This document shows, piece after piece, positions 27,385 through 45,479 of a stretch of 49,364 bases of DNA (position 1 is the stretch's first letter; every line of letters starts with the position of its first letter). The stretch spans positions 1-49,364 of the IMG/VR virus record IMGVR_UViG_3300046501_000150. The stretch is one strand, 5' to 3'. Under the pieces are notes generated by a model that worked only from the letters and a program-made list of their open reading frames with translations, did no database searches and was not told the DNA's origin. The stretch comes from a virus. The position numbers and the translations under genes were made by a program.

Positions 27385-27421
27385 CGCGCCACGAAATGGC
27401 GTCATCTGAATTCGTGGCGCG
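27385..27421. repeat. Dispersed inverted repeat, site A
   Basis: CGCGCCACGAA (27385-27395) and TTCGTGGCGCG (27411-27421): perfect 11-bp arms, 15-base spacer. The outer 9+9 bp are shared with sites B (35683-35718) and C (45358-45394). Lies in a 60-base gap between the holin-like stop and the 32-residue gene. Confidence 0.85.
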
Positions 27422-27423
27422 GA

Positions 27424-27639
27424 TTACTCGCCGGGCTTATGAAGCTTGGACTGCTGGACCACTCGGGCGACAGCGACCGCAACACTCAGGACCATGTTCA
27501 CGCTGGCGAATACCAGCGGATCAACTGCACCCTGAAATACTGACCACCCCACAGCCGCAGCATTGAGCGCAGCGCCGAGCACGGCCAATTGAACGCTGGT
27601 CAAGCGCCAGGCCTTTCGCCATTCGGGGATCAGATTCAT
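27424..27639 (-). CDS. Holin-like membrane protein (two TM)
   Basis: 71 residues from ATG at 27639 (MNLIPEWRKAWRLTSVQLAV), coupled to the previous gene by ATGA. Two hydrophobic helices: about 15-34 (VQLAVLGAALNAAAVGWSVF) and 37-57 (VDPLVFASVNMVLSVAVAVAR), with a charged C-terminus (QQSKLHKPGE): class II holin shape. It would form the membrane lesion that frees the endolysin, encoded 23 kb away. The family resembles small holins of Pseudomonas siphophages. Confidence 0.7.
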   Translation of the reverse strand: MNLIPEWRKAWRLTSVQLAVLGAALNAAAVGWSVFQGAVDPLVFASVNMVLSVAVAVARVVQQSKLHKPGE

Positions 27640-27857
27640 GGGGCTGGATTCTTCGGTAGGAGTTTTTCGAGCTTCTCGGCGTATCGTTTCCATTCATCCC
27701 TGTCAGCAGTCATGCGCTTGAGGCTTGCCGGAGCCTTTTCGGGCTTTTCACACGCCTGGCTGGTGTAGCGGTAGACGGTTGTTTTGATGACTGGCTCTGC
27801 TGGCCTTTCCTGTTGAGCACACCCGGCGAGCAACAGAACGATCAGCAAGCGCTTCAC
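27636..27857 (-). CDS. Small lipoprotein
   Basis: 73 residues with a very short signal peptide MKRLLIVLLLAGC; lipobox LLAGC puts the lipidated Cys at 13. The mature part ends in a charged helix (RDEWKRYAEKLEKLLPK). Sits between a single-pass membrane protein and the holin-like gene, all linked by ATGA overlaps. It could be an Rz1-like second outer-membrane spanin subunit, but a clear Rz/Rz1 pair exists at 3.9-4.4 kb, so a different role is equally likely. Confidence 0.72.
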   Translation of the reverse strand: MKRLLIVLLLAGCAQQERPAEPVIKTTVYRYTSQACEKPEKAPASLKRMTADRDEWKRYAEKLEKLLPKNPAP

Positions 27858-28171
27858 TTGGGCCGCCCTTGGAGCGCCAGACTCTTGATCCCGTCGGAGT
27901 TCTGCAGGATCAAGAAGTCATGACGCTGCACCGTGGAGCGCAGGCCGTCGATGAACTTGTCCGTGCTTTCACGCGAGCGCTCCAGGGAGTCAACACGCTG
28001 CGCCATCAGAGCCGAGCTGGTCTGATAAGCGCTGAGTTGCGATTGCAGCGCGCCGAGCGAGCCAACCACATACACGAACGCGCCAATCGCCCCGGCCGAC
28101 ATAATCGTTTGCAGGACGGGCACGACGATTTTGAACATCGTTCCGTCGGCAATACGTGATACGTCAGTCAT
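27854..28171 (-). CDS. Membrane-anchored coiled-coil protein of lysis cassette
   Basis: 105 residues from ATG at 28171 (MTDVSRIADGTMFKIVVPVL). One TM helix at about 13-38 (IVVPVLQTIMSAGAIGAFVY), then a coiled coil (about 45-95) containing LQSQLSAYQTSS and RVDSLERSRESTDKF. This looks like a holin-associated or i-spanin-like protein, possibly partner of the lipoprotein 27636-27857. Function not demonstrated. An in-frame TTG at 28210 has no ribosome site. Confidence 0.65.
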   Translation of the reverse strand: MTDVSRIADGTMFKIVVPVLQTIMSAGAIGAFVYVVGSLGALQSQLSAYQTSSALMAQRVDSLERSRESTDKFIDGLRSTVQRHDFLILQNSDGIKSLALQGRPK

Positions 28172-28319
28172 GGGCGATCCATTGATAAAAAGGGCTGAAT
28201 GCTCAGCCAAGACGAATAAAAAGGGCCGTCAGGGAGCGGCCAAAGGAGGACAGGGACGAAAGAGGCCCTCGCTGAACGTGACGATCAGAGGTTCCGAGGG
28301 TTGGGGAAATCGCAGACAT

Positions 28320-28343
28320 AAAAAAACCGGCTCAATGTCCGGT
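28320..28343 (-). terminator. Rho-independent terminator in late operon
   Basis: Minus strand ACCGG-ACATTGAG-CCGGT followed by T7. Nearly identical to the terminator at 15972-15995. Bases 28172-28319 hold no gene that I can support. Confidence 0.8.
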
Positions 28344-28373
28344 TTAGGTGTTCGTGTACTTCAGTACGCGCAA

Positions 28374-28559
28374 CTAAAGATCGCATCTTCCTTGCCGCGC
28401 TTTCATCGCTTCCTGAGAAAGACTCAGCAACTCGGAAACCTCATCAGCACTGAAAACAACGTCAGAAACTCGATCCTCGTTAAGCCGATCAGTGAAGTCT
28501 ACACCCTCACATTGGCTCACGTGATCCATGTACTTTCGGAGCAAGATTCTGTGATCCAT
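28374..28559 (-). CDS. Small phage protein, first gene of the late operon
   Basis: 61 residues from ATG at 28559 (MDHRILLRKYMDHVSQCEGV), GGAG 6 bases upstream. Acidic helical protein with SADEVSELLSLSQEAMKARQ near the end. First gene after the pR'/tR'-like element. No recognised domain. Confidence 0.65.
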   Translation of the reverse strand: MDHRILLRKYMDHVSQCEGVDFTDRLNEDRVSDVVFSADEVSELLSLSQEAMKARQGRCDL

Positions 28560-28589
28560 TTCAAGCTCCAAGCGCAACAGGCATTAAGT

Positions 28590-28616
28590 AAAAAGCCCAG
28601 CGGTTAGGCTGGGCTT
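28590..28616 (-). terminator. tR'-like Rho-independent terminator just after the late promoter
   Basis: Minus strand AAGCCCAGC-loop-GCTGGGCTT followed by a T5 run; 9-bp stem. It lies about 35-60 bases downstream of the predicted late start point, like lambda tR', which is overcome by Q. It also closes the early operon. Confidence 0.83.
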
Positions 28617-28657
28617 GCAGAGCAAGTTGCCGTAGGCAAAATACTCAATGTGGCGAA

Positions 28658-28686
28658 ATGATGCCGCCAGCCGCACGGGAAGTCAA
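28658..28686 (-). promoter_or_regulatory. Candidate late promoter (pR'-like)
   Basis: Minus strand TTGACT (28686-28681), exactly 17 bases, then CATCAT (28663-28658). The -35 overlaps the stop codon of the gene at 28683-29264. Transcription would begin near 28651 and meet the terminator at 28590-28616 within about 60 bases. Same logic as lambda Q-pR'-tR'. Confidence 0.6.
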
Positions 28687-29264
28687 GCGGCCTCTTTCAT
28701 CTTGTAAATGGCCGCTCCAATTGGGCTCAAAGCCATGCGGTCGAGGTCCTCACAGCAGTCGAATGTGAGCCGCACCATGCACTCCCAATCCCGGTCCCAG
28801 TTGAACGACTCAAGCCGCACTCCGTACTCGGCCAACAGCCAAGAACGGAACGACTCAGGCTTGATCAGCGGGTCGTCGTTGACCGACTGCCCGCCCTGGT
28901 GCATGTACCGGTACCGGCGCATTACACCCTTGACCACGAATTCCAGCTTTTCCCGCTTCGCCGCCGTCATGCGCTTGGACTTCGACACGACCATGCCGAA
29001 TACCAATTCCTCGGCTGCTTCACGGATGTCGTCGTCCCGGTTGGCTGCGTACATGTACTCGCCGAACACACGCACTTGCGGGTGAAGCTTGGCGATTGCC
29101 GACTGGATATGACCGGCCAACGCGCTGTGCATCGCGTGATTTGCCGTGGGGCCGCGCTCTGTTGCCTGCACAACGACGCCCAGCTGGACCACATCCGAGG
29201 ATTGCCCGGGCGCAGGGTTGTAGGTGCAGTCATGCCAAGCCTGACGTGCTGAGTTGATATTCAT
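28683..29264 (-). CDS. Candidate late antiterminator (Q position)
   Basis: 193 residues from ATG at 29264 (MNINSARQAWHDCTYNPAPG), preceded by GGAGGGGG. Contains SKSKRMTAAKREKLEFVVKG (basic helix, about 99-118), MRRYRYMH and a C-terminal DCCEDLDRMALSPIGAAI. I do not recognise the fold. Evidence for Q function is positional: last early gene, directly before a promoter-terminator pair opening the late operon, which itself contains several internal terminators. A different phage regulator is possible. Confidence 0.55.
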   Translation of the reverse strand: MNINSARQAWHDCTYNPAPGQSSDVVQLGVVVQATERGPTANHAMHSALAGHIQSAIAKLHPQVRVFGEYMYAANRDDDIREAAEELVFGMVVSKSKRMTAAKREKLEFVVKGVMRRYRYMHQGGQSVNDDPLIKPESFRSWLLAEYGVRLESFNWDRDWECMVRLTFDCCEDLDRMALSPIGAAIYKMKEAA

Positions 29265-29521
29265 CTTTGCCCCCTCCACTTCTTCGCCCAGAAAGGGGCT
29301 TTGGTTTGCTCTGTCGTGTAAATCACGCGATCCACGATCTGAGCGGCTAAAGTTTTTGCTACGGATCTGCCGACCTTGCGCATCCTCGCTTCCAAGTCAT
29401 CAAGTCGACATCCGGACAAGAGCCACCCCGCAGACTCGATCGACTCCCGCCCCTCGATAACTTCTTGCGCAAGGTGGGCTTCAAGGGCGCGCCACGCGTT
29501 GTTGCCGACCTCCTCAATCAT
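29261..29521 (-). CDS. Small phage protein, unknown function
   Basis: 86 residues, start MIEEVGNNAWRALEAHLAQE; helical with RLDDLEARMRKVGRSVAKTL, ending WAKKWRGQR. ATGA overlaps with both neighbours (ninG and the Q-position gene). No domain recognised; position is in the nin-like region. Confidence 0.68.
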   Translation of the reverse strand: MIEEVGNNAWRALEAHLAQEVIEGRESIESAGWLLSGCRLDDLEARMRKVGRSVAKTLAAQIVDRVIYTTEQTKAPFWAKKWRGQR

Positions 29522-30099
29522 GCCGCCGCCCTCTTCAATTCTCTGGTCTTCGCCCGGTACTTGGCCGTAAGGGCTTTCAATTCTTCGACGGTGTACTTCT
29601 GGGGCTCATGAGGCCCTTCAAGCCATTCAACGTTCACGGCTCCGATGCGCAGCACCAAGTTGATCCGATACTCCACGATGTTTCCGGACTTGTGCTGATT
29701 GCAGGGCACGCACTGCTTGTGGCAGTTCAGCGGCTCGAAGCGCAGCGCGGGATTGCTGCCCACTGTCCGGTAATGCCCGGCGTCGTACTTACCCTGGTGG
29801 TGCCGGCCGCAGCTGATGCATGGAAGATCAGCGTCACGGGCACGCACCCACTCGTTGAATGCCTGCTGCGTGTCGCGCATGTGGTCGCTGCGTGTCTTCA
29901 GCGCCTCCTTGCGGACCTTGATTTCCTTCCGGTTGCGCTGGGCGATGGCCCTACTGGCTTTGTCCTGATTCGCCGGAGCGATGGCCAGACCACATGCCCA
30001 GCCGCAAACCTTCTGGCCGAGCTGCGCCGGTACGAACTGGATGGCGCACGCAGCGTTTGCGCAGGTCTTCTTCTTGCGCTCTTTGATGGAGAGGCTCAT
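29518..30099 (-). CDS. ninG: NinG/Rap-family recombination nuclease
   Basis: 193 residues. N-terminal zinc cluster CANAACAIQF...KVCGWAC, basic helix, then an HNH-like core CISCGRHHQGKYDAGHYRTV followed by LNCHKQCVPCNQHKSGN and EYR. This is the lambda NinG (Rap) pattern: a structure-specific endonuclease that cuts D-loops and Holliday junctions in phage recombination. Two genes separate it from the Q-position terminator. ATGA overlaps on both sides. Confidence 0.93.
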   Translation of the reverse strand: MSLSIKERKKKTCANAACAIQFVPAQLGQKVCGWACGLAIAPANQDKASRAIAQRNRKEIKVRKEALKTRSDHMRDTQQAFNEWVRARDADLPCISCGRHHQGKYDAGHYRTVGSNPALRFEPLNCHKQCVPCNQHKSGNIVEYRINLVLRIGAVNVEWLEGPHEPQKYTVEELKALTAKYRAKTRELKRAAA

Positions 30100-30347
30100 C
30101 GACGATCCTCCCGCTTCTGGCGCATGTAGAAATTCGCTACCACCTCAGCGAGGAACCGGCACCCGAACTCCGAAAGCCCACCGGCGAACTCGCTTGCCGC
30201 CTCCGCCCGAGCTGCGTATTCGCCGTCCAGTCTCAAGGCGACAGCGCTGCAGAAGCTGCCGATATCCTCCACATCCATTTCCTTGACCAGCTTGTCGACA
30301 GACAAGAACACAGTCGTTTCCGTCGTAATTCCGAGACCGTCGCTCAT
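30096..30347 (-). CDS. Small nin-region protein, unknown function
   Basis: 83 residues from ATG at 30347 (MSDGLGITTETTVFLSVDKL), coupled to ninB by ATGA, GAGGTGG upstream. The upstream 66 codons of the open frame overlap ninB and have no start support. Helical; ends FYMRQKREDRR. No recognised domain. Confidence 0.7.
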   Translation of the reverse strand: MSDGLGITTETTVFLSVDKLVKEMDVEDIGSFCSAVALRLDGEYAARAEAASEFAGGLSEFGCRFLAEVVANFYMRQKREDRR

Positions 30348-30814
30348 GCCGCCACCTCGCCCAGCAGATCCGAGAACACAACGCCGTGACGACCGAAGTA
30401 CGTGACGATGCGGTCGGTGTAGGCGATGCCCTGGGCACGGTTGAACAGGCTGGTCACCGGGAAGCCATCCGGCCCGAACAGATGGCAGCCGCCCATCATG
30501 TCCAGCTTCGTTTCGTAGGACAGATGACGCATGACCCGATACCACTCGGCCTGAAACCCGGCGTCCTCGTTCAGCAGGATCTGCACGCCGATGTGCAGCT
30601 TGCAGTACTTGCGCGCCTCGGCTGGGTCACCGATCTGAGTCATCTCGGATATGCGCTTGTACATCGCGAACCAGAGTGCGTTCTGATCCAAGGTGCGGTC
30701 CTTGCCCGGGCGCAGCGACACGACCACGAAACGCTTGTCGCGATACATCGTGGTCAGGCTGGTGATTGCCTCGGTGAGCTTCGCCTGGCAGTTGACGCTG
30801 ATTTTGGCTGTCAT
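30344..30814 (-). CDS. ninB: NinB/Orf-family recombination mediator
   Basis: 156 residues with the NinB pattern: VVSLRPGKDRTLDQNALWFA, MYKRISEMTQ, ARKYCKLHIGVQILL and FPVTSLFNRAQG. In lambda, NinB (Orf) binds ssDNA and SSB and helps load recombinase. It stands next to ninG as in lambda's nin region; start overlaps the previous gene by 4 bases. Confidence 0.92.
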   Translation of the reverse strand: MTAKISVNCQAKLTEAITSLTTMYRDKRFVVVSLRPGKDRTLDQNALWFAMYKRISEMTQIGDPAEARKYCKLHIGVQILLNEDAGFQAEWYRVMRHLSYETKLDMMGGCHLFGPDGFPVTSLFNRAQGIAYTDRIVTYFGRHGVVFSDLLGEVAA

Positions 30815-31062
30815 GACGGTTCATTCCCCAAGGTCATGGCAAGGCGCTTATCGCGCTGAATGATGTCCGTGCAGCGCTGAATCCTGTGCCAGCACTCGTC
30901 GGGCATTCCCTTCGCGTCCGACATGCAGCAGTCAGAGCAGACCCAACCACACTCTCCGCGAGCTGCTTGAGTAGTCCAATCGCGAGTGGCTTTGTCCATT
31001 TCGGAGATGTGGTCAGGAAGATCTGATTTATTGATGAGCGTTACTTTGACGAAGTCAGTCAT
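30811..31062 (-). CDS. Small Cys-rich phage protein
   Basis: 83 residues, start MTDFVKVTLINKSDLPDHIS. Central ECGWVCSDCCMSDAKGMPDE followed by CWH gives a probable zinc-binding ribbon. Function unknown; nin-region neighbour of ninB. Overlaps its neighbours by 4 and 8 bases. Confidence 0.7.
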   Translation of the reverse strand: MTDFVKVTLINKSDLPDHISEMDKATRDWTTQAARGECGWVCSDCCMSDAKGMPDECWHRIQRCTDIIQRDKRLAMTLGNEPS

Positions 31063-31678
31063 GGCTAGACTCCCGCTTCAGCGCCCCATCAACCTGCTCG
31101 TCGAGCCGCTCGCCGCTGGGGCAATCGTGCCCAAGCTTGACCGACACCTTTGGATTTACCACGACAGCCAGATAAGCTACCGGCCAGTGTTGATTGCGCA
31201 GGAAGCGGTAGCGCTTGGCATCCTTGCGCAGCGCCTCCAGCTCTTCGGTAAACACCGGCCCCTTCAGTCGATCCAGCTCTGCCTGTAACCCTTGGAGCGT
31301 TGCTGTATGAACTCGACGCTCGGCTTCAATGCTCAAGCGCCACGCCTCGTTCTCAGTCTTGAGCTGGTCGCGCTCAGTGATCAGCGACGTAAGGTATTCA
31401 GCATCGCCGATGGTGCCGTCGCCGTCGCACTCGCCGCACTTCTCCATGATTGGCTCTGGCGGCTGGAAATGTCCTTCCCAAGTGTTTTGCCCGGTATAAA
31501 TCTCGCCTTGACCGCCGCAGCTTGGGCACTCGCAGAGCTGGGCCGCGAGCTGCTCGTTATCCGCGATCAGGTCGAGCGCGACTGAAGGCGTGCACACCAT
31601 GCTCCAGAGGTCTTCCTTGTTGGGGAAGTTCTGGTTCACGTCCTCAGCCAGCCGATTCAGTTCGGTGTAGTCAGTCAT
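31055..31678 (-). CDS. Phage protein with DnaJ-type zinc motifs and coiled coil
   Basis: 207 residues. Residues about 50-90 hold two CxxCxGxG-like units (CPSCGGQGEIYTG and CGECDGDGT), as in DnaJ zinc fingers. Residues 95-155 form a coiled coil (ITERDQLKTENEAWRLSIEA) and the C-terminal part resembles Ea/Ead-type phage proteins with EALRKDAKRYRFLRNQHWPV. Role unknown. Coupled by ATGA to the DUF2591 gene. Confidence 0.72.
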   Translation of the reverse strand: MTDYTELNRLAEDVNQNFPNKEDLWSMVCTPSVALDLIADNEQLAAQLCECPSCGGQGEIYTGQNTWEGHFQPPEPIMEKCGECDGDGTIGDAEYLTSLITERDQLKTENEAWRLSIEAERRVHTATLQGLQAELDRLKGPVFTEELEALRKDAKRYRFLRNQHWPVAYLAVVVNPKVSVKLGHDCPSGERLDEQVDGALKRESSHD

Positions 31679-32079
31679 ACAAGCTCCTTAGGCACGCTCA
31701 CTGTCTCGCCGAGTACAGAGGCGACGATGGCGCGGCAGGCAGCGATGAGGTGGGTTGGGCCAAAGACCTCCCATTTGTTGCTGGATGGCAGCTCAAGACC
31801 GTCTTCATCGCAGAGGTAGGCGAACACCAGCCCGTCCCGGTCGAACGTCAGGTCAATGCGATGCTTGGCGATCAGCGGCCCGCCCTGGCTCCAGTCGGTC
31901 GAATATCGGCAGGCGAAACCGGTGACGCTGCCCTCGAGATCAACGGCAGTGACGCCGACGCTGTATTCGGTTCGGCCAATCGGCATGAGCAGCGGATTCC
32001 ATCCCTCTGCCTTTGCCACAGCCCATTCCAGCGCCGCTCCATTCAGCTCAGCCGTCTTCACTTCCACGAATTCGGTCAT
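31675..32079 (-). CDS. DUF2591 (NinX-like) phage protein
   Basis: 134 residues, start MTEFVEVKTAELNGAALEWA. VKTAELNGAALEWAVAKAEG and the STDWSQGGPLIAKHRIDLTF block are characteristic of DUF2591 proteins encoded in phage early operons. Function unknown. ATGA overlaps with both neighbours. Confidence 0.85.
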   Translation of the reverse strand: MTEFVEVKTAELNGAALEWAVAKAEGWNPLLMPIGRTEYSVGVTAVDLEGSVTGFACRYSTDWSQGGPLIAKHRIDLTFDRDGLVFAYLCDEDGLELPSSNKWEVFGPTHLIAACRAIVASVLGETVSVPKELV

Positions 32080-32390
32080 TGCGACACCTTCAGGCCAGCG
32101 GCAGTAATAGATTTGGCGCAGGCTGCACGCATACGATTGGCGGCGTTGAAGCCGTCCATATGGCTATCGTCGATGGCTTCTTCGGGGTCTTCCGGCACTT
32201 CCGGTGAAGGTGGCAGCTCAATCACCATTGCGGCTCTGGATGCCTGCCAGCTTGTCCAAGCCGTATCAACCGTACTGAGACGATACCCATCGCCAGCTCG
32301 CTCAAGGATTTGCGCCGAATCTGCTATAGCCGCCGGATCAATGGTCCAAGCTTCAAACCCCTCACGCATCTTTTCGCTGATGTCAGCCAT
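32076..32390 (-). CDS. Small early phage protein with WxxWQASR motif
   Basis: 104 residues from ATG at 32390 (MADISEKMREGFEAWTIDPA). TAWTSWQASRAAMVIELP (about 43-60) is a recurrent motif of small phage early proteins (FExW ... AWxxWQAAR). The next gene upstream carries the same FETW ... SAWQAAR pattern, so the two are probably paralogous. Function unknown. Confidence 0.7.
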   Translation of the reverse strand: MADISEKMREGFEAWTIDPAAIADSAQILERAGDGYRLSTVDTAWTSWQASRAAMVIELPPSPEVPEDPEEAIDDSHMDGFNAANRMRAACAKSITAAGLKVSQ

Positions 32391-32625
32391 GGAAAGTGTC
32401 CTCGTGCTCAAAGTCGGCAAGGTGGTCAAGGAATTCTTCTTGTTCCCTGACTTGCTTTTTCAGTAGGTCTTCGCGCGCTGCCTGCCATGCCGACCAGCTC
32501 GTATTGAGATGGTGCTTATCCCGACCGGCGTACCAATCACGCTCGCGGACGATGCGGATCACCCGACCTTCTCGGTCAGCTTGGGCGGTGATCCAAGTTT
32601 CAAATTGATTCCGTGAATCACTCAT
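32383..32625 (-). CDS. Small early phage protein, paralogue-like of the neighbour
   Basis: 80 residues, start MSDSRNQFETWITAQADREG; contains TSWSAWQAAREDLLKKQ. Same FExW/WQAAR architecture as 32076-32390. Ends in an acidic helix EEFLDHLADFEHED. Coupled by ATGA with the 56-residue gene upstream. Confidence 0.7.
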   Translation of the reverse strand: MSDSRNQFETWITAQADREGRVIRIVRERDWYAGRDKHHLNTSWSAWQAAREDLLKKQVREQEEFLDHLADFEHEDTFHG

Positions 32626-32792
32626 CGCCCCACTCCCCGCTCGATATGATTTCCACGACGTTGGCTGCCGTCAGTACGGACCAGTCGGTGATCTGCTCCT
32701 GAACTCATGAGCACCATGTCTTTTTGGTGACGAGTGATCTGGAAGCCTTCGGCCTGTAGGTTTTGTACGGTGATGCGTTGGAGCGGGGTCAT
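32622..32792 (-). CDS. Small phage protein (56 aa)
   Basis: ATG at 32792 with AGGTGA upstream and ATGA overlaps at both ends, which makes it almost certainly a gene. Starts MTPLQRITVQNLQAEGFQIT and is followed by RHQKDMVLMSSGADHRLVRT; basic, small alpha/beta. Function unknown. Confidence 0.7.
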   Translation of the reverse strand: MTPLQRITVQNLQAEGFQITRHQKDMVLMSSGADHRLVRTDGSQRRGNHIERGVGR

Positions 32793-33034
32793 GGCTTCAC
32801 CTGTGTCATGAGGACATCGAAGCCGTCGTCCGGCATGAAGACGACCGAGTAACCGAGCTTTTCACCGGTAGCTTCTTCGTCCAAATCGCAGAGGCATTCG
32901 TCGTCGGAAAGTACATCACCGGAAACGCTCACCAGATCAGCCACGGCGCAGCCGAGAATGTGGGCCAGTTCGGCCGTACCAGTGACCACTTCGCCAGACC
33001 CATCAAGGTTTTCAACTTCAACCCAGGTACACAT
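32789..33034 (-). CDS. Small acidic phage protein
   Basis: 81 residues from ATG at 33034 (MCTWVEVENLDGSGEVVTGT), sharing one base with the upstream stop (TGATG). Acidic, DVLSDDECLCDLDEEATGEK. Unrecognised. Directly downstream of the helicase loader. Confidence 0.68.
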   Translation of the reverse strand: MCTWVEVENLDGSGEVVTGTAELAHILGCAVADLVSVSGDVLSDDECLCDLDEEATGEKLGYSVVFMPDDGFDVLMTQVKP

Positions 33035-34642: not shown

Positions 34643-34917
34643 GCGACCCCCTGGGCGGTCTGTGCGGCGCGCTTGAGCGCAGCGGTAAGCATTCGGTAGT
34701 AGCGCTTAAATCGCTCTGGCTGGTCGATCTCTAGACTCCAGCCGGGGTCGTGGCACCAGCCGCAGGATTCGTCGCAGCTGTGGTTGTGGCCTTCGTCCGG
34801 GAAGTGCTTCTTGATGATTGCGCGGGCTTCCTTGTTGATCGCTGCGCCCTTGGTGAGGAAGCGCCGGCGAGCAGTTGGAGCCAGGTAGACAATGGCTTGT
34901 TGGGTGACGATGCTCAT
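34639..34917 (-). CDS. Small phage protein with CxxxCxxC motif
   Basis: 92 residues, start MSIVTQQAIVYLAPTARRRF. Zinc-like HNHSCDESCGWCHDPGW (residues about 44-60), followed by an RFKRYYRMLTAALKRAA helix. Lies between antirepressor and initiator genes, coupled by ATGA on both sides. Function unknown. Confidence 0.7.
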   Translation of the reverse strand: MSIVTQQAIVYLAPTARRRFLTKGAAINKEARAIIKKHFPDEGHNHSCDESCGWCHDPGWSLEIDQPERFKRYYRMLTAALKRAAQTAQGVA

Positions 34918-35690
34918 GCCGCACCCCGCAAAGCCTTGTCATGGGTGAACAAGCCGTCCCACGTCTTCTTCATGGGTAGCTCGCCAGCCAGGTACAGGTT
35001 GTACAGGCGGACGGCACCCTTCTTGAGCAGGACGGGCGTGAAGGAGACGAAGGGCTCTTTGCCGTGCGGGGTGACTTCGTGCTGATGCTCAGTCATGTAC
35101 TTGTCGCGGGCATAGGACGCCACACGCAGGCGCAGGCCAGATTTGCTCTCGTTGTAGAGCCAGCTCCGCCCTTCCAGAAATTTGCCGACCTGCATTACGT
35201 TGACCCCATTGAGGCCCTTGCAGAATTGGGTGTGGGTCATCCCCTCCTTGAACAGGTTCTCCAAGGAATGGATTTTGGTGGCTTGAGCCTGTACCTCGAC
35301 AGACAGCTGCAGTCGGGCCTGCTCAGCAACCTGCTTCTTCTCGACCTCGTCCGCCCAGGCGCGAGCTGCTGCCGCTGGATTTGAAAAATCAGGGAGGGTG
35401 GCAATGACACGAGGGGCATCCATAGCCTTCAGCTTTTGGAGTACCGCACGCCGAACAGACTTGGATTCGCGCATACCTACGAGCATGCATTGATCCAAGG
35501 TAAGGCCGTAGGTAGCCACTTGGTTACCATGGATAGGGGTGTAATATTTTTGCACCCCCTCAAGATCGTCACCAAGTTCATCCTCAACCCGAGAAAGGAA
35601 CTGGTCATTGCGCACCCTTGCCTCGCCTGCGGCTTGTCGCTCGTTGTTGATCAGGTCGCGCAGTTCAATGGTTGAAATCATGCGCGCCAC
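34914..35690 (-). CDS. Phage antirepressor with KilA-C (ANT)-like C-terminus
   Basis: 258 residues from GTG at 35690 (MARMISTIELRDLINNERQA), GGAGGT 9 bases upstream; the open frame continues to 35753 without better evidence, and ATG at 35681 is the alternative. N-terminal part ISTIELRDLINNERQAAGEA, YGLTLDQCMLVGMRESKSVR resembles Rha/Ant-type N-domains; the C-terminal half has the ANT/KilA-C pattern (THTQFCKGLNGVNVMQVGKF, WLYNESKSGLRL, VTPHGKEPFVSFTP). Such proteins inactivate CI-type repressors. Inverted repeat site B covers its start codon. Confidence 0.85.
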   Translation of the reverse strand: MARMISTIELRDLINNERQAAGEARVRNDQFLSRVEDELGDDLEGVQKYYTPIHGNQVATYGLTLDQCMLVGMRESKSVRRAVLQKLKAMDAPRVIATLPDFSNPAAAARAWADEVEKKQVAEQARLQLSVEVQAQATKIHSLENLFKEGMTHTQFCKGLNGVNVMQVGKFLEGRSWLYNESKSGLRLRVASYARDKYMTEHQHEVTPHGKEPFVSFTPVLLKKGAVRLYNLYLAGELPMKKTWDGLFTHDKALRGAA

Positions 35691-35718
35691 GTTTTCGTTA
35701 CCTCCAAAACGTGGCGCG
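35683..35718. repeat. Dispersed inverted repeat, site B, over the antirepressor start
   Basis: CGCGCCACGTTTT (35683-35695) and AAAACGTGGCGCG (35706-35718): perfect 13-bp arms with a 10-base loop. The loop holds the Shine-Dalgarno (GGAGGTAACG in the mRNA) and the start codon lies in an arm, so the element may work both as a DNA operator and as an RNA hairpin. Confidence 0.88.
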
Positions 35719-35750
35719 AGTTGCGGGGTATTGCCATGTGTCTGGATTTG

Positions 35751-35779
35751 CATATAATCGATCCCACATATGCGTTTAA
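35751..35779 (-). promoter_or_regulatory. Candidate antirepressor promoter with GCATAT/ATATGC operator
   Basis: Minus strand TTAAAC (35779-35774), 17 bases, TATATG (35756-35751). Spacer and -10 hold a 6-bp inverted repeat GCATAT...ATATGC. The start would be near 35744, about 55 bases before the GTG at 35690. -35 match is weak (3 of 6). Confidence 0.4.
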
Positions 35780-35782
35780 GAG

Positions 35783-36324: not shown

Positions 36325-36573
36325 TTAAGCGGCAGATAGGGTTTGTGAGGGCGCAGAATTGATCTGAGCCCACGGAAAAGATGGGCAAAGCTCGGCGCGA
36401 TCAACTGCGCCGCCGGTCAATGCCTCGATTTCAATGGCGCGCCTGGCAGGAACGGCGCGCTCTCCGGAACACCATTGGTTGACGGTGGGCGCCGTAACCC
36501 GCAGGCGGCGCGCCATTTCCGCTTGGCTGCCGAGCAAGCGGGATGCTTCTTTGGCTGCTTCTGCTGATTTCAT
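36325..36573 (-). CDS. Cro-like repressor (YdaS-type HTH)
   Basis: 82 residues from ATG at 36573 (MKSAEAAKEASRLLGSQAEM) with AGGAGAG upstream. HTH SQAEMARRLRVTAPTVNQWC (about 16-35) followed by SGERAVPARRAIEIEALTGG is the YdaS/Cro pattern. First gene of the minus early operon, divergent from the cI gene, and preceded by a TTGTTT-N17-TATATT promoter carrying two operators. Confidence 0.88.
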   Translation of the reverse strand: MKSAEAAKEASRLLGSQAEMARRLRVTAPTVNQWCSGERAVPARRAIEIEALTGGAVDRAELCPSFPWAQINSAPSQTLSAA

Positions 36574-36600
36574 GAGTTCTCTCCTGGAGATTGCCCGGTG

Positions 36601-36677
36601 AATATAAGGCATTACCTTACCGCAAACAAGCCATTGCCTAACCAACATTCGAATAGGCCTAATTAGGCAATGCTTAC
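36601..36677. promoter_or_regulatory. Intergenic operators and cro promoter (oL/oR-like cluster 1)
   Basis: Three related 15-bp operators: 36605-36619 TAAGGCATTACCTTA, 36627-36641 CAAGCCATTGCCTAA and 36663-36677 TTAGGCAATGCTTAC. The minus-strand promoter TTGTTT (36629-36624), 17 bases, TATATT (36606-36601) has site 1 over spacer and -10 and site 2 over its -35. Site 3 overlaps the cI start codon at 36670. Confidence 0.82.
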
Positions 36678-39579: not shown

Positions 39580-39758
39580 CATCGGAGTGTGATCTGAGGC
39601 CAAGTCTCGGGCGGCGGACGTGCCAACAGGCAGTCTTTAGGGCTCCCCCTTCCGCTTAATGCCGGTTGAGCCCCGGACAGATCACACCCCGATGCGGACG
39701 AAACTGCGGCCTATAACCGCCCACCTGCACCCAGCTGCCAGAGCGCGCCGCCGCAGTT
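39580..39758 (+). ncRNA. Candidate structured non-coding RNA in a 500-base gene-free gap
   Basis: Arm 1 at 39580-39596 pairs with 39678-39694 over 17 bases with one A-C mismatch (a G-U pair if read from the minus strand), enclosing 81 bases with inner hairpins such as TGCC-AACA-GGCA. A second stem AACTGCGGC (39702-39710)/GCCGCAGTT (39750-39758) follows, perfect over 9 bases. Bases 39538-40058 contain no supportable gene; a 64-codon frame at 39757-39951 has no ribosome site. The strand is uncertain. I know no matching RNA family. Confidence 0.5.
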
Positions 39759-40058
39759 GAAACCCGATACGGAGAATTTGCAGCCATGCACCAGTAAGCA
39801 CCCGCTGCCGAGCAGCAGTTTTCTCAGCCACTACAGCGCTGGGCGCTTGGACCGACGACAGAATATCGGCCCCGGAGAGCGCGCCTTGTCAGCGCCCCGC
39901 AGCGGGCATAGCCCACAGGATCTGCTGGTGACATCAGCGCCGGACAAGTAACCGGCATCCCTTCCCGAATCCACCCGTCAGTCCTCCCCTCGCGCCCATC
40001 GGCAATAGCGAGCGGCCGAGGGCTGAGCGAGTGGATTTGAACCTGTGAGGATTGAGTG

Positions 40059-40364
40059 ATGAGCAAGCAACAGGCGGCCCGCATCCTCCGGCATCAGCTG
40101 GATGAGCTTTCGCATACCGCTTCGCAGTCAGTTGCCGCGAATTCCGGGGGCTGGATCAGCTGCAGCGACAGGCTTCCCGATCTTCCAAAAGGCAGCGGAA
40201 AGCATCACGTCATGGGCTATACGCCAGCCAAAGATGCCCAGCGCTTTGCGAACGGCTCGCGCTTTCTTTACTGGAACGGTATCGACTGGCGCTACCCGGA
40301 CGGGGCGCGCTTCGAGCATCGAGTCACGCACTGGCAGCCATTTCTCGCGCCACCAACTGCATAA
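40059..40364 (+). CDS. DUF551 domain phage protein
   Basis: 101 residues from ATG at 40059 (MSKQQAARILRHQLDELSHT). GGWISCSDRLPDLPKGSGKH and NGIDWRYPDGARFEHRVTHW match DUF551, a small domain of phage early proteins (WISV.DRLP ... VTHWMPLP). GAGGATTGAGTG precedes the start. Function unknown. Confidence 0.85.
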   Translation: MSKQQAARILRHQLDELSHTASQSVAANSGGWISCSDRLPDLPKGSGKHHVMGYTPAKDAQRFANGSRFLYWNGIDWRYPDGARFEHRVTHWQPFLAPPTA

Positions 40365-40384
40365 CCCAGCCCCTGGAGGCAACC

Positions 40385-40807
40385 ATGAACGCAGCATTGC
40401 AGATTGCGCAACTGAACTACGACCGTGCGTTGCCTCCTGAGGATGACGTAGCGCGGGAAACGGCGGCGGCTGAATGGCTGGCTGAGTCGTGCGAGCAGAT
40501 CGTCCGGCATCGCGCTGACATCCGCTTCAAACGCATCGGGCATCCAGAGCGAGGCGTAACCCACGCTGAATACCTGGTCGCCCTCCAGTTTCACCTGAAC
40601 CAGCAGCAGATTGACGGCAGCGACAAGGAAGACTGGCTGGCCCAGCTCGTCCTGAACAACGCTTACGGATATGCATCGCCGACCATCGCGGGCTACCTGG
40701 TTGGCACCGGCCACCCCATGGACAAGCTCTTCGAAATCGCAGAGGCCCTACTTCGGCCTCTTGTCGACGACGCGCTGATCGCCAAGGCCGAGGACGACAC
40801 ACTATGA
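40385..40807 (+). CDS. Phage early protein, unknown function
   Basis: 140 residues, start MNAALQIAQLNYDRALPPED; helical, WLAESCEQIVRHRADIRFKR and LAQLVLNNAYGYASPTIAGY. GGAGGCAACC precedes ATG at 40385. Overlaps the next gene by 4 bases. Similar small proteins occur beside DUF551 genes in pseudomonad phages; role unknown. Confidence 0.7.
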   Translation: MNAALQIAQLNYDRALPPEDDVARETAAAEWLAESCEQIVRHRADIRFKRIGHPERGVTHAEYLVALQFHLNQQQIDGSDKEDWLAQLVLNNAYGYASPTIAGYLVGTGHPMDKLFEIAEALLRPLVDDALIAKAEDDTL

Positions 40808-40998
40808 GCCGCCAGATTATCGAAGCGGCCATTGCCGACATACCAACTCACGAAAACCCCGACCTTGCCTCAGGGCTGGCCGAGGGTCTCGTCATCGCCT
40901 ACTTCACGTCGCAGGTCATCGACTCCGACGAATTTAAAGACTACTGCGCGCGGATTCGGGCCGAGAGCCAAGCGCGCCAGCCAAGGAGAGCGGCATGA
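40804..40998 (+). CDS. Small phage protein, unknown function
   Basis: 64 residues, start MSRQIIEAAIADIPTHENPD; helical, ending RIRAESQARQPRRAA. ATGA overlaps at both ends show it is translated with its neighbours. No domain recognised. Confidence 0.68.
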   Translation: MSRQIIEAAIADIPTHENPDLASGLAEGLVIAYFTSQVIDSDEFKDYCARIRAESQARQPRRAA

Positions 40999-41486
40999 GC
41001 ATTGATTGGACCAAGGCGCCGGAAGGCACAATTGGCGCCATGGTTGCGGGGTTCAGCACTGCATCTGTGGGGTTCGGCGGCATCGAGTGGATCCCCTCCA
41101 GTGGGACGCCTTACGAGCACTACAGCCAAGGCTTTGATGCCTGGACTTACCATGAGGCTCCCAAGCCATGGAGCGGCGAAGGCCTGCCGCCGGTTGGGGC
41201 GGTTTGTGAAATCAAGCACCACAAGCTCGGATGGGTTCGGTGCGAAATTGTTGCCCACAAAGTTATGGATTGTGGGGGCAAGGCTCACGCTATCGCTTGG
41301 ATTGACGCCAATACTATTGACCAATCACAGGGGCTGCGCTTCCGTCAAATTCGCACCTCTGAGCAGATTGCGATCGATGAGATCGTAAAGGTGCTTCAGC
41401 AGGAATGCTGCGCCGGAGACTATGACGGCTCTCTGTCTGCCAAAGCTCTCTACGACGCTGGCTACCGCAAGCAGGTGACGCCATGA
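40995..41486 (+). CDS. Phage early protein, unknown function
   Basis: 163 residues, start MSIDWTKAPEGTIGAMVAGF. DWTKAPEG at the N-terminus is a frequent opening of small phage early proteins. PPVGAVCEIKHHKLGWVRCE (about 65-85) looks like a small SH3-like beta domain; the C-terminus SAKALYDAGYRK is a helical motif also found in EA-type phage proteins. Coupled to neighbours by ATGA. Confidence 0.72.
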   Translation: MSIDWTKAPEGTIGAMVAGFSTASVGFGGIEWIPSSGTPYEHYSQGFDAWTYHEAPKPWSGEGLPPVGAVCEIKHHKLGWVRCEIVAHKVMDCGGKAHAIAWIDANTIDQSQGLRFRQIRTSEQIAIDEIVKVLQQECCAGDYDGSLSAKALYDAGYRKQVTP

Positions 41487-41662
41487 GCACTGCACCGGTT
41501 AAATCGCTGATCGACGAGCAGGTTGAAGAGCTTGATGCTCGCAACGCTCACGCCCTGGTGCGCGGCACCTTCTCCCCACCTCGCGGCATGCGTGTTGCTG
41601 ATCTGCCCTACCCCATCAAAGCAGACTGGCTGAAGCGTCGGCCATTGAAGGGCTGGGGATGA
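41483..41662 (+). CDS. Small phage protein (59 aa)
   Basis: ATG at 41483 overlaps the previous stop (ATGA) and its own stop overlaps the next start. 59 residues beginning MSTAPVKSLIDEQVEELDAR and ending KRRPLKGWG. Basic C-terminus; function unknown. Confidence 0.68.
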   Translation: MSTAPVKSLIDEQVEELDARNAHALVRGTFSPPRGMRVADLPYPIKADWLKRRPLKGWG

Positions 41663-41775
41663 CCGGCTACCAGCGCGCCAAGCGCATCGCCTTCTGGCGA
41701 GGATCGGCAATCGCCCTCACCGCCGCAACAATCTGGATGCTGGCCAGCGCTTACGCCGGGCACATCACGCAGTAA
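41659..41775 (+). CDS. Single-pass membrane peptide (38 aa)
   Basis: ATG at 41659 coupled to the previous gene by ATGA. MTGYQRAKRIAFWRGSAIAL is followed by TAATIWMLASAYAGHITQ: basic N-terminus then one hydrophobic helix, so an inner-membrane peptide or a signal-like segment. Function unknown. Confidence 0.62.
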   Translation: MTGYQRAKRIAFWRGSAIALTAATIWMLASAYAGHITQ

Positions 41776-41829
41776 CCCTTCCCCATTTAACCGCAGCGCC
41801 CCGGCAACAGCATGGCGCAAGGAGCAATC

Positions 41830-42987
41830 ATGTCCGCAGCACAGCAACTCATCACCATCGACGACATCAGCGCCGATAACGCGCCGGTCATTTACGTGGC
41901 AGGCGGACTGAAGCAGTTCCTGGAGCACGCCACCGCCCAAGCCACCGGCGAAGTGCCTGACCTGACCACCCGCAAGGGCCGTGAGCGTATCGCCAGCTTG
42001 GCTGCGCAGGTCAGCAAGTCGAAGGCAGCGGTCGAGAAACCCGGTCGCGACTACCTGAAGCGTCTCAAGGAAATGCCGAAGATCGTCGAGACCGAGCTGC
42101 GTGAGTTCGTCACCAAGATGGACGCGCTGCGTGATGCCACCCGCCAGCCGCTGACTGATTGGGAAACGGCCAATGATGCGCGGATTGATGCGCACAACGA
42201 CCGGCTGGAGTGGCTGCGCGGGTTGCCGCTGAACCTGACCGGTGCCACGTCAGCCCACGTACAGGGCCTGATCGAGCAGGCCGAAGCAGTGGCGATTGAC
42301 GACAAGTGGGAGGAGTTCAAAGCTGAAGCAGCCGGCGTCAAGGACCTAACAATAAATGCGCTCCGGGCAATCCTTGTCGAGCTTCAACGGTACGAAGCTG
42401 AACAGGCTGAACTCGCGCGCCTCCGCGCCGAATCCGAAGCCCGAGCCGAGCAAGACCGAATTCGATTGGCACAGGAAGCAGCTGTAGAGCTAGAGCGCCA
42501 GCGTGTTGCCCTGGAACAGCAGGCCGAACGTGATGCAGCCGCCGCCCGTGAGCAGGCACTGATTGATCAAGCCGCCGCCCAGCAGCGCGCCGCTGAGCAG
42601 GCCGCCCGCGATGCCGAACAGGCCGCAGCCAATCAAGCCCTTCAATTACAACTGGCTGCCGAACAGGCCGAGCGCTTGAAGGTGCAGGCCGAGGCCGACC
42701 GGGTCGCAGCCATCCAGCGCGGCGAGCAAGAGCGCATTGCAGCCGAGCAACGCCAAGCCGCAGCGGTTGAGCGCGCACGGCTCGAAGAGATTGCCCGTCA
42801 GGAACAGGCCGCCGCTCAAGCTGCCCGCGAGGCCGCCGCCCGCGAAGCCGACAAGGCTCACAAGGGCGCGATCTACAAGGCCGCAAAGGAAGCGTTCATG
42901 GATAACAACATGACCGAAGAATGCGCCCGCCTGGCTGTGAAGCTGATTGCCAGCGGCATGATCCCGAACATCAAAATTACTTACTGA
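41830..42987 (+). CDS. Coiled-coil phage protein upstream of ERF
   Basis: 385 residues from ATG at 41830 (MSAAQQLITIDDISADNAPV), AAGGAG upstream. Globular N-terminal ~190 residues (ITIDDISADNAPVIYVAGGL, TRKGRERIASLAAQVSKSKA), then a long Ala/Gln/Glu/Arg coiled coil (about 195-345) of TolA-like composition, and a small C-terminal domain (AKEAFMDNNMTEECARLAVK). Proteins of this type stand next to ERF or RecT genes in many phages and may aid recombination; no enzymatic motif. The repeats make a TolA annotation likely but misleading. Confidence 0.75.
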   Translation: MSAAQQLITIDDISADNAPVIYVAGGLKQFLEHATAQATGEVPDLTTRKGRERIASLAAQVSKSKAAVEKPGRDYLKRLKEMPKIVETELREFVTKMDALRDATRQPLTDWETANDARIDAHNDRLEWLRGLPLNLTGATSAHVQGLIEQAEAVAIDDKWEEFKAEAAGVKDLTINALRAILVELQRYEAEQAELARLRAESEARAEQDRIRLAQEAAVELERQRVALEQQAERDAAAAREQALIDQAAAQQRAAEQAARDAEQAAANQALQLQLAAEQAERLKVQAEADRVAAIQRGEQERIAAEQRQAAAVERARLEEIARQEQAAAQAAREAAAREADKAHKGAIYKAAKEAFMDNNMTEECARLAVKLIASGMIPNIKITY

Positions 42988-42994
42988 GGTTGCC

Positions 42995-43771
42995 ATGACC
43001 AACGTCGCCCGAATGGAAACAGCCGACCGGATGCCGGTACAGGCTCCAGAGTCCGCAACGATCCTCCAAATCATCCAGCAGGTCGCCATGTCGCCAGACG
43101 CGGACATCGACAAGATGGAACGCCTGATGGCGATGCATGAGCGCTTCCAGGCGCAGCAGGCCAAGCAGCAATTCGACGAAGCGCTGGCCCAGATGCAGGA
43201 AGAACTGCCCGTCATTGGTGAGCGTGGCGGCATCAAGGACAAAAGCGGCCGCATCCAGAGCACTTACGCGCTGTGGGAAGACATCAACGAAATGATCAAG
43301 CCTGTGCTGGCAAGACATGGCTTTGGCCTTTCGTTCCGCACCCCGCGTAACGAGAAAGGCATCGAGGTTGAGGGTGTGCTCAGTCACCGCGCCGGACACC
43401 GCGAGACGACCTCGCTGCTCCTGCCGGCCGATACCAGCGGCAGCAAGAATGGCGTTCAGGCTGTGGCCTCCAGTGTGAGCTACGGCAAGCGCTACACGGC
43501 AGGTGCCCTGCTCAACTTCACCACCACTGGCGAAGACGACGACGGCAACGGAGCTGTGGTTACACCGCGTGTGACGTCGGCACAGGCAGCGACCCTCGCC
43601 ATGCTGCTGGAGAAGTGCAGCGAGAGGGCAAAGGCAGCCTTTGCAACCATGCACGGCACCCCGGCCTCGGTCGAGAAAGCAGTGTTTGACCAAGTACTGG
43701 CGATGCTCACCAAGTCGGCATCCCAAAACAGCAAGTCCGCCGAGGAGAGCCAGAATGAAAATAATCAGTAA
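42995..43771 (+). CDS. ERF-family single-strand annealing protein
   Basis: 258 residues. The ERF core is clear: ERFQAQQAKQQFDEALAQMQ, AYALWEDINEMIKPVLARHG-like segment (STYALWEDINEMIKPVLARH), GFGLSFRTP and SSVSYGKRYTAGALLNFTT, then an acidic GEDDDGN. It anneals complementary ssDNA for phage recombination and circularisation. It overlaps the nuclease gene start by 17 bases, and the two form a synaptase-nuclease pair like lambda Red. Confidence 0.94.
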   Translation: MTNVARMETADRMPVQAPESATILQIIQQVAMSPDADIDKMERLMAMHERFQAQQAKQQFDEALAQMQEELPVIGERGGIKDKSGRIQSTYALWEDINEMIKPVLARHGFGLSFRTPRNEKGIEVEGVLSHRAGHRETTSLLLPADTSGSKNGVQAVASSVSYGKRYTAGALLNFTTTGEDDDGNGAVVTPRVTSAQAATLAMLLEKCSERAKAAFATMHGTPASVEKAVFDQVLAMLTKSASQNSKSAEESQNENNQ

Positions 43772-44372
43772 TGTCGAGCAAGGTACTCAGGCGTGGCTGG
43801 ATCTGCGCTTGGGCATCATCACCTGCTCTGAGCTGGATTCGCTGCTGGTCAACGGCAAAGGCGAGGCAGGCTTCGGCGCTGGTGCCTTCACCTACATGAA
43901 CACGCTGATCGGTGAGCGCATCACCGGTGAGGCTGCCGACCCGTTCCAGGGCAACCGCCACACCGAGCGCGGGCATGAATATGAAGGCATTGCCCGAAAC
44001 CTGTACGAGTCGCGCGAAGAAGTGAAGGTCGATCAGGTAGGGATCATCCTAAATCACGGTATCGGCTACTCGCCGGACTCGCTGGTGGGTGCCACGGGCC
44101 TGACCGAGATTAAAACCAAGCTTCCGAAGCTGCAGGTCGAGGTGATCCTCGGCGGCGAAGTGCCAAAAGAGCACATCGCTCAATGCCAGGGTGGGCTCTG
44201 GGTATCGGAACGTGAGTGGATCGACTTCGTTTGCTACTGGCCGGGCATGCCGCTGTTTATCAAGCGTGCCTACCGAGACGAGGTGCTCATCCGCAAGCTG
44301 AACGAGCGCGTCAAAACCTTCTACGAAATCCTCGACGAACGCATGAACCGCGTTCTCGGCATCGCTGCTTAA
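43755..44372 (+). CDS. YqaJ-type viral exonuclease (lambda Exo-like)
   Basis: 205 residues from ATG at 43755 (MKIISNVEQGTQAWLDLRLG), GAGGAG upstream. TQAWLDLRLGIITCSE is the N-terminal YqaJ signature; TERGHEYEG supplies a Glu, Asp108 stands in YSPDSLVG and the ExK pair Glu118/Lys120 in LTEIKTK, the PD-(D/E)XK core. It resects 5' ends to provide ssDNA for the ERF annealase encoded just upstream. Confidence 0.94.
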   Translation: MKIISNVEQGTQAWLDLRLGIITCSELDSLLVNGKGEAGFGAGAFTYMNTLIGERITGEAADPFQGNRHTERGHEYEGIARNLYESREEVKVDQVGIILNHGIGYSPDSLVGATGLTEIKTKLPKLQVEVILGGEVPKEHIAQCQGGLWVSEREWIDFVCYWPGMPLFIKRAYRDEVLIRKLNERVKTFYEILDERMNRVLGIAA

Positions 44373-44384
44373 CAAGGAATCAAC

Positions 44385-44849
44385 ATGCCAACACTATCTG
44401 ACGTCGGCCGCCTCGGTCGGGACGCTGAAATCCGCTACACGCCGGGCGGTGACGCTGTGTGCAATCTTGCTCTGGCCTGTGAATACGGCCGCAAAGGCAC
44501 TGACGGCAAGAAGCCCACCCAGTGGATCGACGCAACGCTCTGGGGCAAGCAGGCTGAAGCGCTGGCCCCGTATCTGCTCAAGGGGCAGCAACTGCACTTC
44601 ACTATCGACGATGCCCACGTCGAGACTTTCCCAAAGAGTGACGGCACCCAAGGCATCAAGCTGACCGGTCGAGTGATTGTGATCAAGTTCGCAGGCAGCC
44701 CACCGCAGCAGGATCAGCCCGCACCGCAGCAGCAGTCGCGCCCGGCCAATCAGCAGGCCCGGCCTCAGCAGCAATCTCGACCAGCCCCGCAGCAGTCACC
44801 ACAGCCTGCGGCAGACTTCGACAGCTTCGACGACGACATACCGTTTTGA
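44385..44849 (+). CDS. ssb: Single-stranded DNA-binding protein
   Basis: 154 residues. OB fold: VGRLGRDAEIRYTPGGDAVC, WIDATLWGKQAEALAPYLLK, GQQLHFTIDD; then a Pro/Gln-rich linker (QQQSRPANQQARPQQQSRPA) and the acidic tip DDDIPF that recruits partner proteins. It is the phage SSB of the recombination/replication module. AAGGAA precedes ATG at 44385. Confidence 0.95.
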   Translation: MPTLSDVGRLGRDAEIRYTPGGDAVCNLALACEYGRKGTDGKKPTQWIDATLWGKQAEALAPYLLKGQQLHFTIDDAHVETFPKSDGTQGIKLTGRVIVIKFAGSPPQQDQPAPQQQSRPANQQARPQQQSRPAPQQSPQPAADFDSFDDDIPF

Positions 44850-44921
44850 GGCGCATCAACACCAAGGTCCGCACACGAAGGCGGGCCGAACAACTCAACC
44901 TCCCACCGAGCGGACTGAGAA

Positions 44922-45134
44922 ATGCAGACTCAAAAAGCGAACACGCGGGTCGACACCCACCAGCGCAAAGGCCCCACCCACCACAAAGCGAAGCTGACCA
45001 CAGCTCAGGTAGATGACATGCGTGAAATCTACGAAAGCGGCGGTGTCACTTACGCCCTGCTGGCCGAGGTCTTCAAATGCGGATTATGCACAGCACGCGA
45101 CATCGTGCTTTACCGCACGCGACTGCATGGGTGA
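44922..45134 (+). CDS. Small HTH-like phage protein
   Basis: 70 residues, start MQTQKANTRVDTHQRKGPTH. LTTAQVDDMREIYESGGVTY followed by ALLAEVFKCGLCTARDIVL looks like a resolvase-type helix-turn-helix (TxxQVxxMRxxYxxGxxxxxLAxxFxxS). Basic N-terminus. It may bind DNA as a regulator; no direct proof. Confidence 0.68.
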   Translation: MQTQKANTRVDTHQRKGPTHHKAKLTTAQVDDMREIYESGGVTYALLAEVFKCGLCTARDIVLYRTRLHG

Positions 45135-45137
45135 CTT

Positions 45138-45479
45138 ATGGCAATGAGCCAAGAGCAGCGTAACGAGAAGCTCGCAACCAAGCGGGCCAAGTTCGCCGAG
45201 AAGGAATTGCGCCACCGGGTTCGGCCTGGCATTGAGGAAGCCCTGAGAAGAGTCAGGGCTCGCGCCGACGATATAGAAACCAGTGAGCTTCTGCAGGTCG
45301 CCATCATGAAGATGGACTTGATGGGCGATGAAGAGCTTCGGTTATTCGCAGAATATCCGCGCCACGAAATACTAGTTAGCGAATCCGTGGCGCGGGAGAT
45401 TTACGATCACGGCGTCCGAAGCATCTTGAATCACCCGGATCAGGATCTTGACGACGAGATCGAGAGCCCTACTGCATAA
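45138..45479 (+). CDS. Small phage protein, carries inverted repeat site C
   Basis: 113 residues, start MAMSQEQRNEKLATKRAKFA (an ATG 6 bases later is an alternative). Basic N-terminal helix, then acidic helical part ending DQDLDDEIESPTA. Not recognised. Its codons for RHEILVSESVARE contain the third copy of the dispersed inverted repeat. Confidence 0.68.
   Translation: MAMSQEQRNEKLATKRAKFAEKELRHRVRPGIEEALRRVRARADDIETSELLQVAIMKMDLMGDEELRLFAEYPRHEILVSESVAREIYDHGVRSILNHPDQDLDDEIESPTA
45358..45394. repeat. Dispersed inverted repeat, site C
   Basis: CGCGCCACG (45358-45366), 19-base spacer, CGTGGCGCG (45386-45394), inside the gene 45138-45479. Arms identical to the outer 9+9 bp of sites A and B; inner bases AAAT/AATC differ, so the identity is not explained by duplication of a longer segment. 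Confidence 0.85.

Follow-up and report, generated by a model that had tools for sequence, protein, structure and literature searches.

Three inverted repeats in three operons

The 49,364-nucleotide (nt) virus contig IMGVR_UViG_3300046501_000150 (here the window, meaning the whole stretch of DNA that was analysed) carries three copies of a 9+9 bp inverted repeat with a long spacer, and its right half resembles the Pseudomonas temperate phages phiPSA1, MR13, MR15, and psageK9 (84–86% identity over 12–17% of the query). Sites A (27385..27421) and C (45358..45394) read CGCGCCACG-N19-CGTGGCGCG and site B (35683..35718) reads CGCGCCACG-N18-CGTGGCGCG, with no strand assigned to any of them. Site A starts 2 nt past the stop codon, in the direction of transcription, of the holin-like gene (DUF7940, phrog_1356; 27424..27693, minus strand) directly upstream of it, and lies in the late operon between lysis and terminase genes. 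Site B corresponds to codons 12–24 of ant (anti-repressor Ant, phrog_63, 279 residues; 34914..35753, minus strand), at the head of a right operon of ant and replication genes (DUF1376-type, DnaC-like). Site C corresponds to codons 74–86 of a gene of family phrog_5439 (113 residues; 45138..45479, plus strand), which follows ERF, YqaJ, and SSB genes in the left operon.

An earlier note on this DNA had reported these repeats as too regular for chance, and this was borne out: all three are exact, and the pattern CGCGCCACG-N16..21-CGTGGCGCG has exactly three matches in the window and none in any of 100 dinucleotide-preserving shuffles. Exact 9-mer arms occur seven times where 1.6 are expected; six lie within the three sites, and the seventh (29488..29496, plus strand), which the note called partnerless, is judged a chance match outside the system. 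The note had counted one coding site; in fact there are two, C within 45138–45479 and B within the ant reading frame, the latter if ant starts at the ATG at 35753, as comparison with homologues suggests. Its description of fixed arms around a free spacer holds for the arms and the spacing but not for the spacer sequence, as the four bases beside each arm are AT-rich.

Conserved places in related phages

Allowing up to two mismatches in the 18 arm bases, we found three sites each in phiPSA1, MR13, Aurca01, and Cruim01 and four in Medea1, at the same three places as in the window; PseuP_222 has the B and C sites. Places were assigned from gene context for annotated phages and fetched regions, and from spacer form and distance for several records seen only as search matches. 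At place A, the first arm begins 0–2 nt past the stop of a lysis-region gene (2 nt in the window; 0 nt in phiPSA1, Aurca01, Medea1, and Cruim01), place B is the 5′ coding part (first codons) of ant/rha/roi-type genes, and place C lies inside a left-operon gene of about 105–110 codons belonging to phrog_5439. The motif is thus kept in relatives that share the flanking genes, rather than lost from them as the earlier note had allowed it might be. The fourth site of Medea1 (L246 28854) stands just behind the CI gene, and three further records (G217, G220, and G226) have a fourth site too.

Two arm types and their spread

A second arm type, CGCGACACG-N-CGTGTCGCG, surfaced when mismatches were allowed in 40 records picked through NinG relatives, and it occupies the A and B places in a set of phages. 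We call the two types C-type and A-type after base 5 of the arm. Exact C-type arms separated by N14..24 were found in at least 119 viral-contig stretches and A-type arms in at least 120, and complete scans of the viral contigs gave 14 stretches with mixed C/A arms and 19 with G or T at base 5. Among distinct AT-flanked sites, the base-5 pair was CC in at least 172, AA in at least 118, mixed in 10, TT in 1, and GG in none, or 290 symmetric against 10 mixed; since the CC and AA counts are lower bounds and the mixed scan was complete, the true bias towards symmetry is probably stronger. From 290 sites, the consensus of a half-site reads [GC]AAA[AT]-CGTG[GT]CGCG-R. The paired change of the two arms would fit a homomeric protein that has two specificities. 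In three Pseudomonas genomes (G001, G124, and G136), C-type and A-type sites lie 6–12 kb apart, apparently within one prophage, and the spacer of the A-type site has the form seen at place B.

Exact arms with N14..24 also gave at least 120 matches in genome contigs. Among the matches listed, the Pseudomonas sites, read by eye, have spacers mostly of 18 or 19 and AT-rich tetramers beside the arms; the non-Pseudomonas matches mostly have scattered spacers and no AT-rich tetramers, as expected of chance, with one exception, an AT-flanked site in a metagenome-assembled genome labelled Methylotenera (L217). An exact C-type match occurs in 45 of 199 Pseudomonas genomes, 25 of which have two or more (maximum 7 per genome), often 5–20 kb apart among the matches listed, and a reversed-pattern control matched 2 of the 199. 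Such few and clustered sites are as expected of prophage-borne sites, and exact matches are rare in host genomes; the earlier note had named a similar density across the host chromosome as what would refute its reading, so this check came out in its favour. Host repeats of the repetitive extragenic palindrome or bacterial interspersed mosaic element (REP/BIME) type, of which many chromosomal copies would be expected, were rejected on the same counts (45/199 genomes, at most 7 each). The element looks like a DNA-binding site common to many Pseudomonas temperate phages and not a peculiarity of one prophage.

Constraint on codons under the arms

In 28 phrog_5439 genes that were not picked by the motif, codon choice under the arms hardly varies: Pro74 is CCG in 28/28, Arg75 is CGC in 26 and CGA in 2, His76 is CAC in 28/28, Val84 is GTG in 27/28, and Ala85 is GCG in 26/26. 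Outside the arms of the same genes, Arg8, Arg16, and Arg25 vary over three to five codons each, and Gly63, His60, and others use several. The same fixation appears in all 86 phrog_5439 genes (Arg75 CGC in 60, CGA in 26), a set mostly fetched with the motif and hence biased, for which reason the count was repeated on the 28. Near-fixed codons under the arms, set against free codons elsewhere, point to selection on the nucleotides.

A phage gene that accompanies the sites

The product of 45138–45479 matches phrog_5439 over positions 1–105 of 106 (hmmscan E 3e-20); all 30 members of profile A1 match this family too. The slot of this gene holds quite different sequences in different phages, and the four tested were all phrog_5439 by hmmscan. 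Of 33 homologues whose sources were chosen independently of the motif, 32 have the in-gene site, and the 33rd is a cut open reading frame (ORF) with a one-mismatch site; one further record (G236) has a degraded in-gene site. The gene with a site inside it (at most one mismatch) also occurs in phages whose gene content differs (AH02, PotUPM1, and UFJF_PfDIW6) and in MT836137, and AH02 has one more site elsewhere.

All six phages set beside the window have the gene; it was not found in PAShipCat1 or CF67a, which are both without sites. It is present in 38 of 40 records chosen for having a site and, among the 40 records picked by NinG and not by motif, in 27 (25 by profile A1, plus G234 and G229 from fetched regions); 25 of these 27 have another site elsewhere. 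All five NinG-set records without any site (G224, G233, G238, G239, and G243) are without the gene by profile A1. Two more records in which the gene was not found are G210, whose B site is 3.2 kb from the end of the record, and G237, which has two weak sites. The earlier note had put forward 44922–45134 as a candidate binder, but that gene gave no informative family, and the next gene, which contains site C, is the better candidate.

Predicted fold and a strand that tracks arm type

In the AlphaFold monomer model of the window protein (mean predicted local distance difference test, pLDDT, 76), helices span residues 5–18, 30–42, 46–61, 64–72, and 82–98, with an extended segment at 19–29. A homologue with a better alignment gave a near-identical layout (mean pLDDT 82), the two models agreeing on extended 19–29 followed by helices 30–42/43 and 46/48–61/62. 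The best fold match of the homologue model was H. pylori NikR (Z 5.5, 1.8 Å over 46 residues, 19–64), with a low score and a Foldseek E-value above 1, followed by weak matches to TacA2, plant and unnamed transcription-factor domains, Reg576, MazE-mt1, and MatP (Z 3.5); the window protein model gave no useful fold match. Several of these are ribbon-helix-helix DNA-binding proteins, which does no more than hint at that fold for phrog_5439. A profile comparison of phrog_5439 with the NikA-like protein of the window was negative.

The strand that precedes the first helix of the predicted fold, encoded in the window by codons 23–31 (ELRHRVRPG; 45204..45230, plus strand), would be the DNA-reading element, and it ends in RPG in the window and in most relatives. 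The RPG form accompanies C-type arms at the distant sites. At B sites, RPG proteins go with C-type arms in 25 cases and with A-type in 2, and other forms with C-type in 2 and A-type in 22 (Fisher p 4e-10, descent ignored); at A sites, the corresponding counts are 24, 0, 0, and 9 (Fisher p 3e-8, descent likewise ignored). These tables hold only records in which both site type and protein were seen and omit any record with no exact or near site at the place in question; the G/A-mixed A site of G228 was dropped from the A table. For in-gene sites, 29 and 13 agree with strand type and 6 of 48 disagree. In related proteins that differ as LRLRVRPG versus IRLHCLPG, the site type mostly switches accordingly, and G285 and G270 combine a C-type in-gene site with a distant B site of A-type, matching the strand prediction.

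Proposed operator system and points against it

We consider it somewhat probable, judging from these comparisons, that the three repeats are double-stranded DNA operators of one phage protein, the phrog_5439 product of 45138–45479, which is the most likely binder among the candidates. Binding by a phage dimer or multimer, as the earlier note proposed, is well supported by site symmetry, conservation, and codon use. The protein would be a ribbon-helix-helix factor, one dimer would read each half-site (AAAW-CGTG[G/T]CGCG), and two dimers, linked through their C-terminal helices, would cover the 36–37 bp site. With one site per phage operon (left/recombination, right/ant-replication, and lysis-late), we infer that the bound protein regulates three operons. 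Given the position of the sites within genes or directly after them, it may act chiefly as an intragenic roadblock that hinders elongation, or as a loop anchor. The targets damped in this way would be the phrog_5439 gene itself, ant and the replication genes, and transcription that reads through from the lysis genes towards the packaging genes; autoregulation would follow from the position of site C within the phrog_5439 gene. More tentatively, and as a picture that we think rather unlikely in full, a ribbon-helix-helix tetramer on three sites 8–10 kb apart (in the window) could form a looped hub coupling the left, right, and late transcription units, with two protein/site specificity classes reshuffled by recombination and a regulator that changes specificity at one base per half-site.

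Several observations weigh against these assignments. Among the first phages compared, the tape-measure gene has the same distribution as the phrog_5439 gene, so that distribution alone does not single out the latter. The gene was not found by search in two records that have a site (G256 and G282) or in three that keep one A-place site (G219, G223, and G241), and two carriers of the gene (G212 and G235) show no second site. It was also not found in three records with A and B sites (G227, G230, and G244), which end 8.7–13.7 kb beyond B, within the 8.4–16 kb at which the gene lies from B elsewhere. The strand rule fails at 4 of 51 B sites (G286, G245, PseuP_222, and G266) as well as at the six in-gene sites, and arm types are mixed between sites in some prophages. 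The protein's own tree holds six changes of B type, of which only two to three pairs are independent, and the NinG tree holds three changes of strand, three of B, and two of A, giving one to three independent pairs; overall, one to three pairs fall below what a sign test needs, and the A-type phages form mostly one NinG clade. With so few independent switches, descent alone could yield much of the association between strand and arm. As to the fold, Foldseek E-values are all above 1 and fold scores low, 30 members and 8 further proteins have no Pfam family above cut-off, and a PDB sequence search returned only weak matches, ribosomal S20 first, taken as compositional.

Alternative readings of the sites

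It is unlikely that the sites serve DNA architecture and not transcription, with the phrog_5439 product or another protein bridging the three to fold or segregate the phage genome, though some points favour it: there are three (sometimes four) sites in conserved order, some 5–16 kb apart, two of the three are coding and not at promoters, and symmetric long-spaced sites suit a tetramer. MatP is a DNA-binding protein with a ribbon-helix-helix part that acts on dispersed symmetric matS sites over kilobases, and it is among the weak fold matches to the phrog_5439 model (Z 3.5); matS, however, is a short contiguous palindrome in a host chromosome system. Temperate phage N15, whose prophage is a linear plasmid with a telomere resolvase, has centromere inverted repeats dispersed near replication and antirepressor genes, much as here, but no ParA/ParB-like product was found among the 20 window proteins scanned with Pfam (a part of its ORFs), and integrases are present in the five annotated relatives that were read first, so these would not need plasmid partition. 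AH02, PotUPM1, and UFJF_PfDIW6, with only one or two sites, also fit poorly. The looping or centromere-like system of the earlier note gained no support for a ParB-type centromere from these 20 proteins, in keeping with its own remark that no ParB-like gene was visible. The note's other suggestion, the antirepressor (Ant/Rha/Roi) as binder of the sites, including the one in its own gene, now appears improbable. About 40 of 153 distinct sites do lie in the 5′ coding part of ant-type genes, and Roi of HK022, which with phage Rha-type regulators is the parallel for a site within an Ant/Roi-type gene, is reported to bind a site within its own gene; yet gene distribution points away from Ant, and a scan of HK022 gave no recurring inverted repeat. 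The Ant of PAShipCat1 is 74.5% identical over residues 6–146 without any site found, ant differs among site carriers (30% over 126 residues between phiPSA1 and the window), and AH02, PotUPM1, and UFJF_PfDIW6 have the in-gene site but none in an ant gene (at most one mismatch).

A host protein restricted to some members of Pseudomonas, if it bound the sites, would explain why AT-flanked genome-contig matches are nearly all from Pseudomonas (among the matches listed, the Methylotenera contig L217 aside) and why the P. aeruginosa phage examined keeps only a decayed arm, but the sites accompany a phage gene, exact sites are few and often clustered in host genomes, and both arm types occur within single host genomes (G001, G124, and G136), and we regard this reading as quite improbable. 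RNA hairpins in three transcripts, whether nut-like or processing signals, are a very doubtful explanation. The sites do lie in transcribed DNA, stems of 9 bp are possible, and base 5 changes on both sides together; nevertheless, single-arm changes on the sense strand of 32 genes gave 22 non-pairing cells against 8 G-U, which argues that base pairing is not the conserved property, the inner AT tetramers are frequently unpaired, and a G-C or T-A pair at base 5 was met once among AT-flanked sites. The least probable reading of all is that the sites are boundary sequences promoting recombination between mosaic modules: site B is retained where the body of ant differs and some prophages have arm types shuffled among their sites, but spacers differ between sites, and both the symmetric change of the two arms and the strict codon use favour recognition by a protein. 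Overall, the repeats are genuine and conserved, and they look like an apparently prophage-borne operator system with a good candidate regulator.

Relation to known systems

The parS half-site and the arm have CCACG in common. NikR, whose structure residues 19–64 of the phrog_5439 model match best (Z 5.5), is, according to a passage of PMC9860126, a homotetramer whose ribbon-helix-helix domains bind DNA at two half-sites; in a passage of PMC5385501, the half-sites occupied by one tetramer have centres about 20 nt apart. Here, in contrast, the half-sites are 27–28 bp apart centre to centre, phrog_5439 has no evident metal domain, the gene is phage-borne, two of the three sites are intragenic, and no sequence relationship was found. 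The phage system may thus work like a ribbon-helix-helix repressor with long-spaced half-sites, as far as the models can suggest. The SrpA palindrome, given as NTATC-N-GATAN in a passage of PMC5945682, is not the site found here. No published description of the motif was found in titles and the beginnings of abstracts among the matches listed.

These results point to an undescribed phage regulator: well over 100 Pseudomonas phage and prophage stretches hold a regulatory-looking element, and a protein family listed as unknown supplies the matching candidate regulator. If the assignment is right, lambdoid Pseudomonas phages would have a control layer in addition to CI/Cro and Ant, and the protein and site variants would form a natural set for the direct study of one specificity base.

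Further observations on relatives and neighbouring genes

In PAShipCat1 (L249, about 3768–3850), the N-terminal coding part of Ant keeps one arm-like stretch, CGTGGCACG, which may be a decayed site B; no phrog_5439 match was found in this P. aeruginosa phage. Distant relatives of phrog_5439 occur in two phages with weak or no sites, G237 (L543:17545-17793; matching phrog_4093) and G233 (L548:10013-10480), and may have operators of another sequence. Some phrog_5439 proteins are long (about 160–200 residues; L228:5357-5872, L211:5614-6111, G268, G269, G272, G273, and G279), and the DNA-binding unit seems to occur twice in them; the L228 protein has a second peptide stretch resembling the site-encoded one.

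The ant, holin-like, and phrog_5439 proteins were assigned to no PADLOC family. Between the repressor gene and ant in the window lie a NikA-like gene (PF21983; 36067–36294, minus strand) and a YdaS/Cro-like gene (36325–36648, minus strand). Directly behind the phrog_5439 gene, on the opposite strand (45631–46428, minus), is a gene whose product matches PF16872 (putAbiC, putative phage abortive infection; E 2.6e-17), possibly a defence cargo gene.

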